This document shows positions 19,409 through 41,549 of a stretch of 64,000 nucleotides of DNA, in pieces (position 1 is the first letter of the stretch; each line of letters starts with the position of its first letter). Position numbers and translations under genes: made by a program. The stretch is taken from contig NZ_JHWJ01000007.1 of assembly GCF_000687555.1 (NCBI RefSeq), forward strand, positions 62,001-126,000, read 5' to 3'. The notes under the pieces were generated by a model. The model worked only from the letters and a program-made list of their open reading frames with translations, was not told the DNA's origin and did not search any database. Origin of the DNA: [Clostridium] aerotolerans DSM 5434. Lineage in GTDB: Bacteria; Bacillota; Clostridia; Lachnospirales; Lachnospiraceae.

Positions 19409-20638
19409 TTATTTTCTTAAGGAAGGCATTTTTTTAAGCCGTTCCATGGCTTCTACTGTATTTTCATAAGTACCGAATGCAGTGAGACGGAAATATCCTT
19501 CACCACTTGGTCCAAACCCGCTTCCAGGAGTTCCCACCACACTGGCTTCTTCTAAAAGCAGATCAAAAAACTCCCAGGAGGTCATTCCTTCCGGCACTCT
19601 CAGCCAGATGTAAGGAGCATTGACTCCGCCGTAGACTTCACAGCCGGCTTCCTTTAACCCATCATAGATGACTCTGGCATTTCTCATGTAGTATGCCACC
19701 TGTTCCTTTAGCTGTGCCTTTCCTGCTTCGGAATACACGGCTTCACCAGCCTTCTGGATGATGTAAGGGGCTCCGTTAAATTTAGTTCCATGACGTCTTG
19801 CCCAAAGAGCGTGAAGAGCCACTCCGCCACGGGTCAATTCCTTTGGAATTACGGTAAATCCAAGACGTACTCCGGTAAATCCGGCGTTCTTAGAAAAAGA
19901 ACGGAATTCAATGGCACAAGTCTTCGCGCCCTCAATCTCATAAATGGAGTGAGGAACGTTGTCCTCTGCAATGTACGCTTCATAAGCAGCGTCATAAAGA
20001 ATCACTGCACCTGTTTTATTGGCATAATCCACCCATGCCTTTAACTGGTCTCTGGTTAAGGTGGTTCCTGTTGGATTGTTTGGAACGCATAAGTATATAA
20101 GGTCTGCCGCCTCTTTTGGAAGCTCAGGAACGAAACCGTTTTCTGCTGTGCAAGGCATATAGACCACCTTGCTCCATTTTCCGGTTACCTCATCATAGGT
20201 TCCGGTTCTTCCTGCCATGACATTGGAGTCTACGTATACAGGATACACAGGATCACAGACTGCAATGATACTGCTCTCATCAAAGATTTCCTGAATGTTG
20301 CCGCAGTCACTTTTGGCACCGTCAGAAACAAAAATCTCGTCTGCCTCGATCTGACAGCCTCTTTTAATATAATCTTCTTTTGCAATGATTTCTCTTAAAA
20401 AGCTATACCCAAGATCCGGTGCATAGCCGTGAAATGTCTCTGCATTTCCCATCTCCTCTACCGCCCCGTGAAGAGCGTCAACAATAGATGGAGCCAGAGG
20501 CATGGTAACATCGCCGATTCCAAGACGGATTACTTTTTTATCAGGATTTGCTTCGATGTAAGCTTTCACTTTTTTTGCAATTGTGGAAAACAGATAGCTT
20601 CCCGGAAACTTTAAATAATTTTCATTTACCTTAACCAT
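19409..20638 (-). CDS. dapL: LL-diaminopimelate aminotransferase
   Basis: 409 residues from the ATG at 20638, the canonical [17 protein letters not shown] start, with AGGAGG five bases upstream; an in-frame start 17 codons earlier is not supported. Class I/II PLP-dependent fold: [16 protein letters not shown] at the N-terminus, NNPTGTTL, and the PLP lysine in [18 protein letters not shown]. The enzyme converts tetrahydrodipicolinate directly to LL-DAP, bypassing the succinylase or acetylase routes, a pathway found in clostridia, plants and Chlamydia. It lies 19 bases after dapF, which takes the next step to meso-DAP. Confidence 0.95.
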
Positions 20639-20657
20639 AGGTTCCTCCTGCTTTATC

Positions 20658-21470
20658 TTATAGATTGTTAATGTCAAATTCTCCCTCAAACACTTCCACC
20701 GCAGGCCCTGTCATAAACACATGACCACTGCCCTCTCTGTCCCAGTGAATGGTCAGATTGCCGCCCTTTAATTCTACCTCTACCGTGTTTAAGGTCCGTC
20801 CGCTCAGTGCTGAGGCTACTGCACTGGCAGTAGCGCCAGTTCCGCAGGCCCAGGTCTCACCGCTGCCTCTTTCCCATACCCTCATACGAATATAGTCCTT
20901 TTTTATTACCTCAATGTACTCAGAATTGGTCCGCTCCGGGAAACGCTCATGGGTTTCAAAGGAGGGACCTATGGATTCAAGGTCCAGATCATCGATGCCT
21001 TCCATATAATAGATTGCATGGGGATTTCCCACGGAAATACCGATAAATTCATACTCCTTACCGTCAATTACAATGGGCTCCGGCACTGTACTGGTCAGCT
21101 CCGGAATTCCCATATCAACAGTAATCTTAACTGCCTTACCATTTTCTTCGGTGATCTTTAAATGCTTGATCCCTGCCTTTGTCTCTACATCAAATTCTGT
21201 TTTATCCACCAGCTTGTGATCAAAAACATACTTACCCACACAGCGGATTCCATTTCCGCACATTTCGCTTTCTGATCCATCTGCATTGAACATCTGCATC
21301 CGGCAGTCTGCTGTCTTAGAGGGGCAGATAAGTATCAGTCCATCGGAACCGATTCCAAAATGGCGGTCGCTCACCTTTTTAGAAAGCTCTGCCGGATTTT
21401 GAACCGTTTCCTCAAAACAATTGATGTATACGTAATCATTACCAATTCCCTGCATTTTTGTAAATTTCAT
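20658..21470 (-). CDS. dapF: Diaminopimelate epimerase (canonical copy)
   Basis: 270 residues, full length. Both catalytic cysteines are present: Cys71 in [12 protein letters not shown] and Cys209 in [12 protein letters not shown]. Other family marks are [10 protein letters not shown] at the N-terminus, FGIGSDGLI and VGNPHA. It interconverts LL- and meso-DAP for lysine and peptidoglycan. It starts 17 bases after the ANTAR regulator gene and precedes dapL, so it appears to be in a glnA-ANTAR-dapF-dapL transcript. A divergent paralogue lacking both cysteines lies at 38673-39533. Confidence 0.96.
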
Positions 21471-34506: not shown

Positions 34507-37500
34507 CTAAATTATATAGTCTTCCAGGGCGTTCCTTGCCTGCTTGAAACTATTGGCAAACTCTTTTTCCCTTATTCCGATCATAGCGAAGGTTCCCCTT
34601 ACCGGCAGAAAGTTCCGTCTCTCGTCTCCTGACATCTCATGATTTAAGTTCTTAATGATTCCGCTCAGCTTCGCCTCCATATCACTTTCCCGAATATTTT
34701 TACACAGCACGACCACCTCATATCCACCATTTAAGCAAAGAAGATCTTCCTGACGGAAATAGCCTTTCAAACGGCTGACCTGTTTTAAAAACAAGGTTTT
34801 TCCATCTTTTCCTGCCTGTCCGTTTATGACCTTTGGACGGCTCATTTCAAAGACGGCCAGAGAGGAGGTCTGAAATCTGTCACGTTCCAGATATATCTTA
34901 AGACTTTCCTGAAATCTCCTGCGGTCTAAAAATCCTCTTACTTCCGATGGCAGCCAGATTTCCTGAGAATTCAGCTTAAGAACATTTTCTTTGCTTTCGT
35001 TCCAGTTTTGAGGGTACTCCATCATTTCTTCTAAGTTCACCATGACGCCGTATAACGTGCTATTATCCCTGGCAGAGATTCTGAAATTGGATAGAGCCGT
35101 CATATAACCCGTCTTTATTTTGATCCGGTATTTAAAATCCCATAAGGTTTTTCCCGGACTTAATTCCTCTGACATCTTAAGGAGCATTTCCCTGTCATCC
35201 GGATGAATCATCTCAAGTAAGCTTCCCTTAAAGCAGGATGCCAGTTCTTCTCTTTCAAAGCCGGTCAATTCATGAAAACGGGAGCTTGTGTATTGGAACG
35301 TCATATCATTGTTTTTGATGCATCTGAAGTATCCGCCTGGTATTCCAGAGCTTAAGAAATCAAGCTCGTCCTCCTTCTTTTCCAGAACCTCAACCGTATG
35401 CTTGAGCTGCTGCTCTGCAAGCACTGTATTTGTTATATCCATACAAGCGCTTACCACCGCCAGACGTCCATCCTCTGCCTGAACCGTACGTCCCTTTGTC
35501 ATGATCCACAGATAACTTCCGTCCTGTTTTCTGATCCTGTGCCGGAGATTGTACTCCATGCCCGGGGTATCGCAGCAAAGAATCACTTCCCGAATGAGAA
35601 TCCTGTCATCCGGGTGAATGATATCCACCATCATTCCGCCAATATCCCTTGTAAAGCGTTCATAGGAATCGTAACCCAGCATACTTAGCATCTCGTTATT
35701 GGCAAAATAAAGAGGCAGTTCCTTTTCGCAATAGATTCCAACCAGACCTCCCGGAGCCGCCTGAGCGAAGATAACGCTTGCCGCCCATTGATTTTCCTGG
35801 GCCATGTTATCAAAGGAGAGATTACGTCCGGCGAGCTTCATTACTTCACTGAGCATCTTCTGAGAATCCTCAAGCTTTTTTCTCTGCTCCATCTGCTCGG
35901 TGGCATCCTGAACGGTTCCATAATAAAGTCTTCGGTCATCCTGCTCTCTTAAGAAGAATACTCTAAGATGCACCCACATAAGCTCTCCGCTTAACCGGTA
36001 ACGCCTGAAAATCCCTTCTGCTCCGTGTACCGGATTCTTATACGCATTCTCAAAGATTCTAAGGACCCAGTCAATGTCATCCTTATAAACCTTGTGAAGC
36101 ATAAATCTTCTTCGTTCTCCCGCATCCACGGGATTATCTCCGGTAATGCGGTAATACTCTTCATTTACCCTTAAAACCTCACAGCGGTCCTCATAAACCT
36201 CATATAGGGCAATGGCTCCCAGCATATTGTTTAACATGGCCTCACTGGTAATATCTTCGTTAAACAGATCCTCCAGCTTAAACTCCTTCATCTGCCGGGC
36301 CTGAATGCCTCTGTAATCCAGATTATTGTCATTTCTTAAAAGCGCCTCCACCTCTGTCACGGTCATGGGCTTGTAATAGTAATATCCTTGTCCGTAAATG
36401 CAGCCAATGTTAATGAGGAAATCAGCCTGTTCCTTCTCCTCTATCCCTTCTGCAATCACCTTAAACTGCATGACCCTTGCCATCCTTACAATGGTCTCAA
36501 GAATGCCCATTCCACGCTTAATACTGCTTTCGTTCATATCCAGGAACTTGGTATCGATCTTGATTACGTCCACGTTCACATCTTTCAGCATGTTAAGGGA
36601 GGAATAACCGCTGCCAAAGTCATCCATGAAAACAGGAAATCCTGCCCGCCTTAAATCTTCAACTACCTGTCGGATCAAATCATAATCCTCGGCGTAGGCG
36701 CTTTCCGTTATCTCAATTTCAAGGTATTTGGGATCAATCTCATATTCTTCTATCAGCCCTTTAAAAGTCTCAACCACGTTAATGCCGTAAAGATCCATAC
36801 GGGACATGTTAACGGAAATAGGAATGGGTTTGATTCCTGCCTTTATCCACTTGCTAAGCTGTTTGCAGACCATCTCCCAGATATAGACATCAAGATGGGT
36901 GATAAAGCCATTCTGCTCCAGAAGTGGAATGAATTCTCCCGGAGATATCATTCCACGGGTAGGATGCTCCCACCGTACCAGAGATTCCATGCCGATGATT
37001 TTTCCGGTCAGCATATTACACTGAGGCTGTGCATAAAAAATAAACTCTTTATTCTCCAGGGCCCTTTGTATCTCTGACAGCAGGACCTGATCATTTTCCA
37101 TCTTGCGTTTCATTCCCGGATCATACCAGCCCACCCGTTTTGCATAATTGCCCTTTACGGAATTCAGAGCGATAATTGCCCGGTCGTACATGGTGCTTAC
37201 TGTTAAATGACGATCCTCGATGCAGTATATTCCAAAAGCCGGCAGAAAACCGGCATTTCCGCCGAATTGTCTGGCATAGCCGTTAATCTCCTGTTCCAGC
37301 TGATGCAAAAGCTCTGAATCCTGAGGCTGGATAATGACGAAATCATCGCCTCCCATATAGCCTGCAATGGTATCCCGGGTGGCCTCCATCATCCTTAAAT
37401 ACTCGCTGATCTTAATTAAGAATCGGTCACCCTCATCTTCCCCATACCATTCATTATAGAGCTTGAAATGCTCAATATCGATGGCAACCATGAAAAAGGG

Positions 37501-38325
37501 TTCCTGGGGCCGCTGCTCCAAAAATAGTCTGGCTTTTTCAAAGAATGGACCATATCTTAAAAGTCCTGTGAGAGAATCTGTTTCATCTCTTCTCTCCTGC
37601 TGCTGTTTCTGCTCCTCTTCCTTCTTCTTTAAGCTGTCTATGTCCTTCACATAACACATGACCAGAGATTCGTCCCTAAGTTCGTCAAGAAATAATACAA
37701 CGGTCAGGCTGACCCAGTGGTAGCTCCCATCCAAAAGCTGCCTGCGAAACTCTGCTTTTATAATTCTTTCACTTTCATTCAGACGATCCAGTAAGGTGGG
37801 ACGATCCCAGAATTTCAAAAACTCTTCCCTGTCACTGGGGTGAATCATGGTTCTTAGCACCTCTGTATACATAGGTACCAGCTCCCCCTCTTCGGCAGGG
37901 AGCTTAAATTTATTTTTCTCACAGAAGATGATCTTATATGAATTTGAATTCAAATTCAGTTCAAATAATTCTTCATATGCTGTGTTATTCGTAAGACTAT
38001 AAAACAGATTTTTATTCTGTTCCCCAACGGGGCGGAACATAACTAATCTGCTTCCCTCATATCCCGGCCAGTCAATCAGGCCAGAGGATAGACTCAGCCA
38101 CAGCTTGGAGGCAGCATCATAAAATATCACTTGTCCGGAATCATTTAAAGCTCCCGGACAGACCTTACAGGGAACAGAATTCTTTCCCAATTCTTCATAA
38201 CAGTACATTCCTGCTTTCAGATCGGGATAATACGATTTTGCCATATCATTCATGTAAATAATCCTGTATTCCTGGTCAATGATGTAGATACCGGCCTCTC
38301 CATTATCAGCCGACATTTGATTCAT
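34507..38325 (-). CDS. Multi-PAS GGDEF/EAL protein with a degenerate second GGDEF-like domain
   Basis: 1272 residues without membrane segments. Rough order: PAS (1-100), PAS (115-245), GGDEF (255-410), EAL (425-675), PAS (700-830), PAS (860-985), PAS (1000-1110), GGDEF-like remnant (1135-1272). The first cyclase has GYMGGDDFVI, a near-consensus site. The EAL domain has ESLVRW, SVNMSR, IEITES, DDFGSGYSSL, VIKIDTKF, AEGIEE and GQGYYY, so phosphodiesterase residues look intact. The last domain has LNGGYEVVVL where GGDEF should be. It should turn over cyclic di-GMP in response to cytoplasmic signals. I chose ATG at 38325, which has AGGAGAGG upstream. Confidence 0.88.
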   Translation of the reverse strand: MNQMSADNGEAGIYIIDQEYRIIYMNDMAKSYYPDLKAGMYCYEELGKNSVPCKVCPGALNDSGQVIFYDAASKLWLSLSSGLIDWPGYEGSRLVMFRPVGEQNKNLFYSLTNNTAYEELFELNLNSNSYKIIFCEKNKFKLPAEEGELVPMYTEVLRTMIHPSDREEFLKFWDRPTLLDRLNESERIIKAEFRRQLLDGSYHWVSLTVVLFLDELRDESLVMCYVKDIDSLKKKEEEQKQQQERRDETDSLTGLLRYGPFFEKARLFLEQRPQEPFFMVAIDIEHFKLYNEWYGEDEGDRFLIKISEYLRMMEATRDTIAGYMGGDDFVIIQPQDSELLHQLEQEINGYARQFGGNAGFLPAFGIYCIEDRHLTVSTMYDRAIIALNSVKGNYAKRVGWYDPGMKRKMENDQVLLSEIQRALENKEFIFYAQPQCNMLTGKIIGMESLVRWEHPTRGMISPGEFIPLLEQNGFITHLDVYIWEMVCKQLSKWIKAGIKPIPISVNMSRMDLYGINVVETFKGLIEEYEIDPKYLEIEITESAYAEDYDLIRQVVEDLRRAGFPVFMDDFGSGYSSLNMLKDVNVDVIKIDTKFLDMNESSIKRGMGILETIVRMARVMQFKVIAEGIEEKEQADFLINIGCIYGQGYYYYKPMTVTEVEALLRNDNNLDYRGIQARQMKEFKLEDLFNEDITSEAMLNNMLGAIALYEVYEDRCEVLRVNEEYYRITGDNPVDAGERRRFMLHKVYKDDIDWVLRIFENAYKNPVHGAEGIFRRYRLSGELMWVHLRVFFLREQDDRRLYYGTVQDATEQMEQRKKLEDSQKMLSEVMKLAGRNLSFDNMAQENQWAASVIFAQAAPGGLVGIYCEKELPLYFANNEMLSMLGYDSYERFTRDIGGMMVDIIHPDDRILIREVILCCDTPGMEYNLRHRIRKQDGSYLWIMTKGRTVQAEDGRLAVVSACMDITNTVLAEQQLKHTVEVLEKKEDELDFLSSGIPGGYFRCIKNNDMTFQYTSSRFHELTGFEREELASCFKGSLLEMIHPDDREMLLKMSEELSPGKTLWDFKYRIKIKTGYMTALSNFRISARDNSTLYGVMVNLEEMMEYPQNWNESKENVLKLNSQEIWLPSEVRGFLDRRRFQESLKIYLERDRFQTSSLAVFEMSRPKVINGQAGKDGKTLFLKQVSRLKGYFRQEDLLCLNGGYEVVVLCKNIRESDMEAKLSGIIKNLNHEMSGDERRNFLPVRGTFAMIGIREKEFANSFKQARNALEDYII

Positions 38326-38379
38326 ACATTCCCGCCTCTCCTGCATCTCATTAACTACGCACCTACTAAATTATTGTAT

Positions 38380-38672: not shown

Positions 38673-39533
38673 TTACTGGAGTGACTTAAGCTGCTCTGCC
38701 ATCTCATGGGAAAGTGTAAATCTGCCCACATATCCCACTTCACCGGTCATTAATACATTTTCATCTTCCTCGATTTCCACTTCAAGAACACCACCTGGCA
38801 TATGAACATACATCTTCCGTTCCGTAAGTCCCATGCGGTACGCTGCTCCGGCGGCTGCACAGCCACTGGTTCCGGAAGCAAGGGTATATCCTGCCCCGCG
38901 CTCATAGATCTCAATTTCTATATTGGTACGGTCTAAGACCTTTAACAGCTGAGTATTGATCTTTTCCGGGAAACACTCGGCGGATTCGGAATGCTTTCCG
39001 ATCCGGCATACCAGTTCCTTGGAAATATCATTTAACCAGATCACACAATGTGGGTTTCCTATGTTAACACAAGTGACCCGGTAAGGAATGCTGCCAAACA
39101 TCATGGTCTCATTCAGAACTTCTCTTCTCGGTCCTGTAACAGGAATTTCATCGCTGTAAAAGCTTAATTTCCCCATGGATACCTTTATCTTGGTTCCTTC
39201 TTCATTTAAGTACTGTATGGTCTGCTGTCCGCTTAATGTATTGATCGTAAAACGATTTTTTTGTACGTATCCAGCGTCTTTTAAGTATTTACCAAAAATT
39301 CTGACTCCGTTTCCACTGATTTCTGCTTCGCTTCCATCGGGATTTAAAATCTTTACCTCCAGCTTGTCATTGCCAAGGATAGGACCCACCAAAAGGCCGT
39401 CTGATCCAACTCCAAAATTTCGGTTGCAGATCAAGCGGATATTTTCCTCTGTCAACTCCAGCTCGTTTTTATTAGGATCAAAAATCAGGTAATCATTTCC
39501 CAGTCCGTGGTATTTTTCTAACGTTATATTCAT
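38673..39533 (-). CDS. DapF-fold paralogue lacking both catalytic cysteines
   Basis: 286 residues from ATG at 39533 (AAAGGAG seven bases upstream). It aligns with DapF along its length: HGLGNDYLIFD, FGVGSDGLLV, NPDGSEAEISGNGVRIFGK, NIGNPHCVIW and YERGAGYTLASGTSGCAAAGA. The two positions that are Cys in DapF are Ser73 (EISGNG for EMCGNG) and Ser220 (LASGTS for WACGTG). Glycine/asparagine loops that hold the substrate carboxylates are kept. Epimerisation by the usual two-thiol mechanism seems impossible, so it may bind, isomerise by other residues, or regulate. Its start overlaps the ligase stop (ATGA). A normal dapF exists at 20658-21470. Confidence 0.85.
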   Translation of the reverse strand: MNITLEKYHGLGNDYLIFDPNKNELELTEENIRLICNRNFGVGSDGLLVGPILGNDKLEVKILNPDGSEAEISGNGVRIFGKYLKDAGYVQKNRFTINTLSGQQTIQYLNEEGTKIKVSMGKLSFYSDEIPVTGPRREVLNETMMFGSIPYRVTCVNIGNPHCVIWLNDISKELVCRIGKHSESAECFPEKINTQLLKVLDRTNIEIEIYERGAGYTLASGTSGCAAAGAAYRMGLTERKMYVHMPGGVLEVEIEEDENVLMTGEVGYVGRFTLSHEMAEQLKSLQ

Positions 39534-40552
39534 GATAAAACTCCTTTCCCGTGTTTCGCGATCTCGTTGCATAAATCAGCATATGTGATTCCGGCTGCCA
39601 AAGCTTCCTGAGGGAGAAGACTAAATGGCGTCATGCCAGGCAGAGTATTTGCTTCCAGACAATATAGACTTCCATCCTCTTTCATTAAAAAATCAACTCT
39701 GGAATAATAGCCAAGTGAAAGAGTCTCATGAACCAAAAGCGCAAGCTGCTTCATCTCTTCTGCCTTTTCCTCGATTAACTGGGCCGGACAGATCTCTTCT
39801 GTCTTACCAGGCTGATATTTATTTTCATAATCATAAAACCCTTCGTTTGGAATGATCTCTATGACAGGCAATGCCTCTTTGCCCATAATTCCTACTGAAA
39901 ATTCTCTTCCTGTTATCTTAGCTTCTGCCATGATCCGCTCCTCATACTGAAAAGCAACATGGAGCGCGTCTTCCCACTGGCTTAAATTTTCTACCATGAC
40001 AACGCCCACACTGGATCCACAGCCACAAGGCTTTACCACACAGGGAAGTGTATAGGGCTCAATTCTTTTTCCTTTTGTATACACCTTCCAATCCGGAGTA
40101 AGTATCCCAGCTTCCCGCATCATCAGCTTTGCTATATGCTTATCCATGGCCTTTATAGACCCTTCATAGCCGGTACCTGTATATGAAATTCCATAGGCAT
40201 CAAAAACTGCCTGTATCTGACCGTTCTCTCCTGCTCCTCCATGAAGTGCCAGAAAAACAATATCTGCAAGACTGCAGGCTTCTATCACCCGGTTTCCTAT
40301 AAAGCCTCGTCTATGAAAAGCACCAGTTAATTGTTCCAGATCAGGGGCATCCTTCCCAATCTCATAATAATGGTTCCCGCCATCGTTTAGGCTTTGAAAC
40401 CGTATCTCTTCTCCATTGGCAATTCCTAAGTAAGAATCTATGAGACAAACATCATGGCCTTTCTCCATCAGGGCATTGGTTATCATGGCACCTGAAGATA
40501 ATGATACGTCCCGTTCCGGGCTGTAACCACCTGCCAGCACTACGATTTTCAA
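39530..40552 (-). CDS. D-alanine-D-alanine ligase family protein
   Basis: 340 residues. The N-terminal domain starts VVLAGGYSPERDVSLSSGAMI, followed by LALHGGAGENGQIQAVFDAYG and YTGTGYEGS. The ATP-grasp part has LPCVVKPCGCGSSVGVVMV, the omega-loop region with KYQPGKTEEICPAQ and YCLEANTLPGMTPFSLLPQEA. It should join D-Ala to D-Ala or another D-amino or hydroxy acid. The start is TTG with AAGGT upstream. Whether this is the housekeeping Ddl or a special ligase is unclear; its coupling to a DapF paralogue and its placement away from murF are unusual for ddl. A divergent AraC gene lies 145 bases away. Confidence 0.85.
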   Translation of the reverse strand: MKIVVLAGGYSPERDVSLSSGAMITNALMEKGHDVCLIDSYLGIANGEEIRFQSLNDGGNHYYEIGKDAPDLEQLTGAFHRRGFIGNRVIEACSLADIVFLALHGGAGENGQIQAVFDAYGISYTGTGYEGSIKAMDKHIAKLMMREAGILTPDWKVYTKGKRIEPYTLPCVVKPCGCGSSVGVVMVENLSQWEDALHVAFQYEERIMAEAKITGREFSVGIMGKEALPVIEIIPNEGFYDYENKYQPGKTEEICPAQLIEEKAEEMKQLALLVHETLSLGYYSRVDFLMKEDGSLYCLEANTLPGMTPFSLLPQEALAAGITYADLCNEIAKHGKGVLS

Positions 40553-40697
40553 TATAATCTACCTTCTTCTCGTTGTGATCATCGGTTCTATATTCTAATT
40601 ATATACAGCACTATTCATCATTTCTACTAAAATAATGCTTTTTATATTGCAGATTGTGTTGTAAAATAAAAGGAACGAAGGGAGGAGGTTTTTATCC

Positions 40698-41549
40698 ATG
40701 GACAATTACGAAAAACGGGGATATTTAAACAGTGACTTTAAGCTGTTCCATCTCCTCGATACGAAGAAACAGGACTTTGAATACCACTACCATGATTTTG
40801 ACAAAATCATTATCTTCATACAGGGAAATGTGACCTATCGGATTGAAGCATGCACCTATAAGCTGGAACCTTACGACGTTTTGCTGGTAAGCCATAACGA
40901 CATCCACAAACCGGATATTGACCCCACGGTTCCATACGAAAGAATTATCGTATACTTATCTCCCGGCTTTTTACAGGCTTATCAATCAGAAAGCTATGAT
41001 CTAAGTGCCTGCTTTCAGAAATCCAAAGAACTTCATTCCCATGTTTTAAGGCTTCATTCCATGGAAAAAAGCAGTTTATATCGTTCCGTGACAGAATTAG
41101 AGTACGCTTGTACCCATGATGGCTATGCCAGAGACTTATATTGTCAGGTGGTCTTCCTGGAGTTTATGATCCAGCTTAACAGAGCCTCTTTAACCAACCT
41201 GGTAAAGTACCTCCCGCCCGCCACGGCAGATAAGAGAATCTTAACCATAATGGATTACATTAACAGCCACTTAATAGATGATATGACCGTAGATTCCATT
41301 GCAGAATCCTGTTTTATCAGCCGATATCATTTGATGCACTTATTTAAGGATGAGACGGGGTACACTCTGTTTGATTATATTACGGAAAAGCGGCTTTTAC
41401 TGTCCAGAGATCTACTAAAAACCGGAATTTCTGTGACAGAGGCCTGTTTTAACAGCGGCTTTAAGAATTACTCCACCTTTTCCAGAGCCTATAAAAAACA
41501 TTTTCACGCCTCACCCTCTGATACTATAAAGGAACAGTCTTTTTTTTAG
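40698..41549 (+). CDS. AraC-family regulator with N-terminal cupin domain
   Basis: 283 residues. The N-terminal cupin-like sensing domain (about 1-130) contains FEYHYHDFDKIIIFIQGNVTYRIE and YDVLLVSHNDIHKP. The C-terminal double helix-turn-helix (about 180-283) reads MDYINSHLIDDMTVDSIAESCFISRYHLMHLFKDETGYT and ends FKNYSTFSRAYKKHFHASPSD. GGGAGGAGG precedes the ATG. It is transcribed divergently from the ligase/DapF-like pair, so it may control that operon in response to a small ligand. The ligand is unknown. Confidence 0.9.
   Translation: MDNYEKRGYLNSDFKLFHLLDTKKQDFEYHYHDFDKIIIFIQGNVTYRIEACTYKLEPYDVLLVSHNDIHKPDIDPTVPYERIIVYLSPGFLQAYQSESYDLSACFQKSKELHSHVLRLHSMEKSSLYRSVTELEYACTHDGYARDLYCQVVFLEFMIQLNRASLTNLVKYLPPATADKRILTIMDYINSHLIDDMTVDSIAESCFISRYHLMHLFKDETGYTLFDYITEKRLLLSRDLLKTGISVTEACFNSGFKNYSTFSRAYKKHFHASPSDTIKEQSFF

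Follow-up and report, generated by a model that had tools for sequence, protein, structure and literature searches.

A 64,000-nucleotide stretch of the [Clostridium] aerotolerans DSM 5434 genome (contig NZ_JHWJ01000007.1, positions 62,001 to 126,000; hereafter the window) carries, besides a canonical dapF, a second, dapF-like gene whose product has serine (Ser73 and Ser220) at the two positions where diaminopimelate (DAP) epimerase has its catalytic thiol-thiolate pair of cysteines. Sequence, fold and substrate pocket all mark this protein as a DapF homologue, yet it lacks the cysteine pair that defines the enzyme. We propose, at a probability of roughly 0.55, that the window gene encodes a DAP epimerase of a distinct type, in which the hydroxyls of Ser73 and Ser220 would carry out the proton transfer done by two thiols in known DapF. 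The proposal draws on the conservation of the serine pair and on 27 genomes in which a protein of this Ser/Ser type is the only DapF-family protein found.

A DapF homologue with two serines in place of the cysteine pair

The window protein scored 231.5 bits against the DapF model TIGR00652 (cut-off 114.65) and has the DapF fold; in a structure-comparison list (VIA-align), the hydroxyproline, PhzF and CntK families ranked below DapF. The PROSITE DapF signature, N-x-[DN]-[GS]-[SENGFT]-x(4)-C-[GI]-N-[GA]-x-R in the version quoted in PMC8225329, fails at the cysteine only, and every other position of the corresponding stretch, N64-P-D-G-S-E-A-E-I-S-G-N-G-V-R, fits. All eight substrate-contact residues found essential in C. 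glutamicum DapF (PMC5296763) are present, as assigned by motif and spacing, and their retention argues against a substrate other than DAP. Close relatives carry the name 'diaminopimelate epimerase' in databases.

The first-pass annotation of this DNA had placed Ser73 and Ser220 in the DapF-like protein and Cys71 and Cys209 in the genome's own dapF, and had taken the substitutions as selected, not decayed. Coordinates and residues are as it described, and selection is borne out by the relatives. The pair was Ser/Ser at all 25 loci scored in the genus (L011-L035, the window locus included), which rules out a strain-specific mutation or a sequencing error; cysteine in close relatives at the same locus, which would have told against the claim, was not seen there. 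A database protein search scored 7998 proteins, and in the best 120, whose residues were read, position 220 was Ser in every case and position 73 was Ser in 111, Gly in nine and Cys in none. Ser73 is therefore not strictly invariant. Five of the nine Gly73 proteins (P0095, P0102, P0104, P0106, P0109, P0110, P0112, P0114 and P0119) have a Ser one place earlier, at position 72. Gly73 was also read at loci L126, L127, L131-L133, L136 and L066, and the Gly73 proteins (n=15) keep Ser220 and all eight DAP-contact residues.

In the genus, the median ratio of nonsynonymous to synonymous substitution rates (dN/dS) was 0.025 for the dapF-like gene (246 pairs) and 0.108 for the adjoining ligase gene (208 pairs), which thus evolves about four times faster, although dS near saturation in these pairs makes the values approximate. 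Pairs with dS too small or undefined had been dropped (79 of 325 for the dapF-like gene, 45 of 253 for the ligase). The low median rules out neutral decay, and the DapF-like protein is held tighter than its ligase neighbour.

Relatives were collected by a profile search of species genomes, in which the best 80 matches, corresponding to 79 loci, were kept, and by a profile search of 392 genomes of the window's order. Ser/Ser loci were labelled Planctomycetota, Verrucomicrobiota, cyanobacteria (Paraprochloron, Nostoc), Spirochaetota, Thermodesulfobacteriota, Actinomycetota, Chloroflexota, Bacteroidota and Halanaerobiales, and named strains with the type belong to Nostoc, Micromonospora, Actinokineospora and Anaeromicropila. 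When a Phycisphaerales protein was the query of a protein search, Ser73 and Ser220 were found in 120 of 120 among the matches listed.

A maximum-likelihood tree of 78 rows was built after removal of eight signature columns. On this tree a 100/99 branch has every Cys/Cys row, with two one-Cys rows, on one side and every Ser/Ser or Gly/Ser row, with two odd rows, on the other. Since the Ser/Ser rows cluster without the signature columns, unrelated separate losses of cysteine are ruled out for the main group. The window protein groups with rows from Lachnospiraceae and other Clostridia (100/98, starred). A Halanaerobiales protein lies closest to this group (97/86, starred), with Planctomycetota next at an unstarred fork (94/66). 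Mixed pairs also occur, namely Cys73/Ser220 at L114 and L037, Ser73/Cys220 at L040 and Cys73/Asn220 at L144; on the tree, L114 falls on the Ser side and both L040 and L144 fall on the Cys side.

Most Ser/Ser members outside the Lachnospiraceae have a common block, K72-S73, I79, Y216, S220 and S222-S223, and Ser/Ser proteins keep all eight residues on which substrate binding by C. glutamicum DapF depends. Lys72 was present in the 19 loci from a first set of genomes with a single DapF homologue (see below) and in the 120 Planctomycete-query proteins compared. Position 216, which is Tyr in the Ser/Ser type, is Glu, Ile, Pro or Ala in most of 28 Cys/Cys proteins.

Genomes in which the Ser/Ser protein is the only DapF homologue found

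We searched 38 genomes, from 38 of the 79 loci, for DapF, DAP dehydrogenase, LysA and DapL. Left out were 22 Cys-type loci and 19 Ser-type loci, the latter being L041-L052 (12 loci, Lacrimispora-like or Hungatella), L056, L058, L060, L063, L065, L082 and L091. The Ser/Ser protein was the only DapF-family protein in 19 of the 38 genomes, and among these 19, LysA was above cut-off in 15, DapL in 12 and both in 10, while DAP dehydrogenase was above cut-off in none, some short matches lying below it. In each of eight further genomes, Ser/Ser was likewise confirmed as the sole DapF-family protein, with LysA above cut-off in three and DAP dehydrogenase in none; these eight were picked for their single copy, so that 27 of 46 is not a frequency. 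Together, 18 of the 27 sole-DapF genomes have LysA above cut-off, no DAP dehydrogenase above cut-off and no other DapF homologue found. LysA decarboxylates meso-DAP, and without DAP dehydrogenase the known routes yield LL-DAP. Because LysA needs meso-DAP, an epimerase is required in such genomes, and the Ser/Ser protein is likely to be a working epimerase there; in the 27 sole-DapF genomes it would be the protein that makes meso-DAP. Two of the 27 are one-record chromosomes, CP073341.1 (Paraprochloron, titled complete) and CP070782.1 (Phycisphaerales, a metagenome bin), in which a missing contig is a poor excuse for the absence of a second DapF.

Replacement and gene order agree in part with a putative epimerase role. 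Among 61 genomes (G435 and 60 relatives), 14 had a Ser-type match (one of them partial), 41 had only other matches and six had none. In four of the 14, another match was seen as well, at 33-39% identity; residue-by-residue scoring in this set covered 13 Ser-type and 17 other loci. At L078, the Ser/Ser gene directly follows the gene for LL-DAP aminotransferase (666 bits, cut-off 585), at L089 it lies with alanine racemase and lysA genes, and at L076 it lies between partial lysA and dapL frames, in a genome that has further DapF proteins.

DapF, a cofactor-free enzyme, uses a cysteine thiolate to abstract a proton of pKa ∼29, and its two cysteines are regarded as key (PMC12039745, PMC8225329). 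Known enzymes lose nearly all activity on a Cys-to-Ser change, so a natural Ser/Ser enzyme would need help, for which Lys72 and Tyr216 are the obvious candidates. In the mechanism we propose, the hydroxyls of the two serines would be activated by the N-termini of the helices that follow them and by residues of the block, possibly these two. We give about even odds to a wider proposal, that these proteins form an unnoticed class of cofactor-free two-serine epimerases with Lys72 and Tyr216 as helpers, which would replace classical DapF in planctomycetes, verrucomicrobia, a cyanobacterium and others, and which gut Lachnospiraceae would have rebuilt as an AraC-switched spare wall-precursor enzyme.

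Several observations weigh against a two-serine DAP epimerase. Single Cys-to-Ser mutants of PddB keep less than 0.1% activity (PMC8225329, which cites similarly faint residual activity for M. tuberculosis DapF), and the activity of HisR Cys-to-Ser mutants is greatly reduced (PMC11602996). Nine of the 27 sole-DapF genomes are without LysA above cut-off; several of the nine are draft bins, and two, from the window's order, have LysA-like proteins of 267 and 271 bits (cut-off 297.9). No lysine gene was recognised by eye at most of the other non-Lachnospiraceae loci viewed, where profile scans covered a minority of the neighbours. Many Ser/Ser loci are from metagenome bins whose phylum labels may be wrong. 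The signature block has exceptions, in that L140, the sole DapF locus of genome G040, has Thr222, and a Streptomyces plasmid protein has Met72 and no Tyr216. For the window copy in particular, a Cys/Cys dapF is also present in the genome, residue 72 is Ile, so that Lys72 is not kept, and Ser73 and Gly73 have interchanged at least three times on the tree, where Gly would remove one of the two acid/base groups. The main loophole is the pyridoxal phosphate (PLP)-dependent DapF2 proposed in other bacteria, mostly staphylococci (PMC9026213), which could cover the missing step, as the sole-DapF count is of DapF homologues and DapF2 was not searched for in the 27 genomes.

The window locus and alternative explanations

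The features of the window that concern the Ser/Ser gene are as follows.

38673-39533, minus strand: dapF-like gene of the Ser/Ser type, 286 amino acids; a longer open reading frame, 38673-39572, begins at an upstream ATG
39530-40552, minus strand: D-alanine-D-alanine-type ligase (Ddl) gene with a TTG start, one of the genome's three strong Ddl matches
39530-39533, minus strand: ATGA overlap of the dapF-like start and the ligase stop
40553-40697: divergent intergenic region of 145 bases, presumed from the gene coordinates to be the promoter region
40698-41549, plus strand: divergent cupin-AraC family regulator gene, a conserved pairing
39315-39317, minus strand: codon 73, AGT (Ser), first catalytic cysteine position, directly before model helix 74-86
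38874-38876, minus strand: codon 220, TCC (Ser), second catalytic cysteine position, directly before model helix 221-233
39318-39320, minus strand: codon 72, Ile; Lys elsewhere (19 sole-DapF loci, 120 Planctomycete-query proteins)
38886-38888, minus strand: codon 216, Tyr, characteristic of the Ser/Ser type
20658-21470, minus strand: canonical dapF with Cys71 and Cys209, a comparison gene outside the module

The likely start of the dapF-like gene is the internal ATG at 39533, from which Ser73 and Ser220 are counted and which has an AAAGGAG ribosome-binding site ahead of it. This ATG (39533-39531) shares bases with the ligase stop TGA (39532-39530); the resulting overlap and the divergent cupin-AraC regulator had both been noted in the first-pass annotation, and both are present. 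A genome search found two DapF-family proteins in the window genome, whose nearest named relatives in the database protein search were Lacrimispora. The ligase is above cut-off for both NF002378 (298.2 against 243) and TIGR01205 (270.4 against 245.65), and nine of nine catalytic residues, including the Tyr of the KY motif as assigned from E. coli DdlB, are in place in the window protein and in each of 34 further rows, a count that includes repeated genomes. A Van-type resistance ligase is ruled out, since the Van models, read among the best 25 of 37 families, scored far below cut-off (e.g., NF000207, 168.4 against 520, and NF000206, 150.3 against 550).

A ligase gene adjoins the Ser/Ser gene at 22 of 25 genus loci, at one of 36 other Lachnospiraceae-group loci (Hungatella hathewayi) and at none of 28 loci outside, so the ligase partnership that had been suggested for the window stands as a conserved arrangement of the genus, and not as a defining partnership of the Ser/Ser type. 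An AraC gene was seen beside it at 24 of the 25 genus loci (the exception lies near a contig end), at 25 of the 36 and at none of the 28. As a history, Lachnospiraceae would have acquired or retained an older Ser/Ser DapF as an additional copy that was placed beside AraC, and Ddl would have joined the pair only in the window genus and in Hungatella hathewayi. In Lacrimispora and its kin, the AraC-controlled second copy might then be co-translated with a spare Ddl, and two wall-precursor enzymes might be made together under one signal. Our best guess is that the window pair are inducible spare wall-precursor enzymes. The activity of the window copy is less certain than that of other Ser/Ser proteins, because Lys72 is mostly lost in its group and Ser73 is Gly in some relatives, and for the same reasons its reaction may be slower or narrowed.

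These features also fit a different account, which we regard as possible but doubtful. In it, the copies in Lachnospiraceae, with that of the window among them, would be paralogues that have become specialised and lost the interconversion of LL- and meso-DAP; they would act on another amino acid, or use a single base for elimination or proton exchange, and the ancestral Ser/Ser protein outside the family would have remained a DAP epimerase. A second DapF-family protein is present in 25 of 25 genus genomes (the Cys pair was read only in the window genome) and in nine Lachnospiraceae-group genomes, G422-G430 (with one half-match fewer in G429). Lys72 is mostly lost (among 175 rows, residue 72 is Leu in 56%, Ile in 22% and Lys in 10%), Thr is mostly found instead of Ser at position 222, Ser73 and Gly73 interchange repeatedly, and the AraC pairing suggests a conditional role. 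However, even where residue 73 is Gly (15 proteins) all eight DAP contacts remain, and the gene is under very strong constraint (dN/dS 0.025); with contacts and constraint both retained, the pocket still looks made for DAP.

It is unlikely that the Ser/Ser protein is instead a dead DAP-binding sensor or partner, with another enzyme, such as the PLP-dependent DapF2, making meso-DAP in the sole-DapF genomes. This would account for the near-inactivity of Cys-to-Ser mutants of known enzymes (PMC8225329), it could call on the DapF2 proposed mostly in staphylococci (PMC9026213), and it suits the AraC and ligase neighbours in the window. It fits less well with the presence of the Ser type in place of the Cys type among the G435 relatives, with the adjacency of the Ser/Ser gene to dapL or lysA at three loci from other groups, and with the coordinated change, not loss, around both active-site positions. 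The earlier idea that epimerase chemistry had been lost in favour of a sensor or partner role is accordingly less likely for the subfamily, whose member is the sole DapF-family protein in 27 genomes. We give a similarly low probability to a joint function of the DapF-like protein and Ddl, whether as a complex or as two steps of a pathway, in making a dipeptide that contains an unusual D-amino acid; such a unit would be compatible with a two-serine DAP epimerase. The ATGA overlap, the adjacency at 22 of 25 genus loci and the intact catalytic residues of the ligase speak for a unit, as does the O-ureidoserine racemase, a DapF relative of solved structure that shares its pathway with an ATP-grasp ligase. 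Against it, the dapF-like gene lacks an adjacent ligase at three loci of the 25 in the genus, at 35 of the 36 others in the Lachnospiraceae group and at all 28 outside it, and the ligase evolves about four times faster than the dapF-like gene (0.108 against 0.025).

Other genes were seen near dapF-family genes in the window and elsewhere. An open reading frame at 19409-20689, dapL-like by eye (no profile scan), adjoins the canonical dapF, and directly downstream of the dapF-like gene, 34507-38346 (minus strand) encodes a 1279-amino-acid protein with PAS, GGDEF, EAL and further PAS domains, whose gene cluster also follows the Ser/Ser gene at several related loci. At five Enterocloster-like loci (L054, L055, L057, L058 and L060), a second DapF-family gene lies three genes after the Ser/Ser gene; a glutamine synthetase-like gene (by eye) lies in between at four of the five, and a gene of an aminotransferase cluster then follows in four of the five. 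At the Planctomycete loci L072-L075, a gene resembling a PhzF-family isomerase, a member of the DapF fold, lies near the Ser/Ser dapF (by eye).

When plasmids were searched with the Nostoc protein, 117 records matched, none of them reaching 60% identity; the best 30 of the 117 were listed and one, from Streptomyces, was examined further. On this plasmid (NZ_CP108679.1; L178, 8270-14392), the Ser/Ser DapF relative adjoins an annotated 2-oxoglutarate-iron (2OG-Fe) dioxygenase gene, with an aminotransferase gene and an ornithine-cyclodeaminase-family gene nearby. In Micromonospora sp. ATCC 39149 (L092, 7572-10042), the Ser/Ser gene adjoins an aminotransferase-like gene, with neighbours that resemble, by eye only, an oxygenase and a nonribosomal peptide synthetase. 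Both loci have the look of biosynthetic clusters, which suggests that a pathway-specific epimerase for an unusual amino acid may be encoded there.

Relation to known epimerases and racemases

A natural DapF with serine at both positions was not found described in the titles and abstract starts of the papers listed by searches of the open-access literature, which did not cover subscription journals. The bifunctional DapF of Chlamydia trachomatis is of the Cys type, not the Ser type (PMC5885031). If the proposal is right, base activation in cofactor-free epimerases could be tested with natural variants instead of dead mutants, thiol-directed DapF inhibitors would have natural blind spots, and the annotation 'diaminopimelate epimerase' would cover two enzyme types, because the window protein passes TIGR00652 and its relatives bear that name.

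The closest known system is DapF itself (TIGR00652; H. influenzae, E. coli, C. glutamicum and Anabaena), which has a Cys pair where the window protein has Ser73 and Ser220. For the Anabaena enzyme, aziDAP and alpha-methyl-DAP have served as ligands (PMC12039745). Most Ser/Ser members outside the Lachnospiraceae further differ from it in having Lys72, Ile79, Tyr216 and Ser222-Ser223, and the two types lie on opposite sides of the 100/99 branch. The 2,4-diaminobutyrate racemase PddB, the histidine racemases HisR and CntK and the O-ureidoserine racemase DcsC likewise have a DapF-like fold and are pathway-specific DapF relatives, and the PddB gene adjoins that of its synthetase (PMC8225329). Both PddB and HisR, as characterised, rely on a Cys pair (PMC8225329, PMC11602996), in contrast to the Ser/Ser type. 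The proline/hydroxyproline racemase-epimerase-dehydratase superfamily is more distant, with ∼10-15% identity in structural alignment. DapF2 (PMC9026213) is also a proposed replacement for DapF at the same step, put forward on a similar genomic argument, but it is an alanine-racemase-like, PLP-dependent protein, whereas Ser/Ser proteins are genuinely homologous to DapF and, on that basis, would be cofactor-free.
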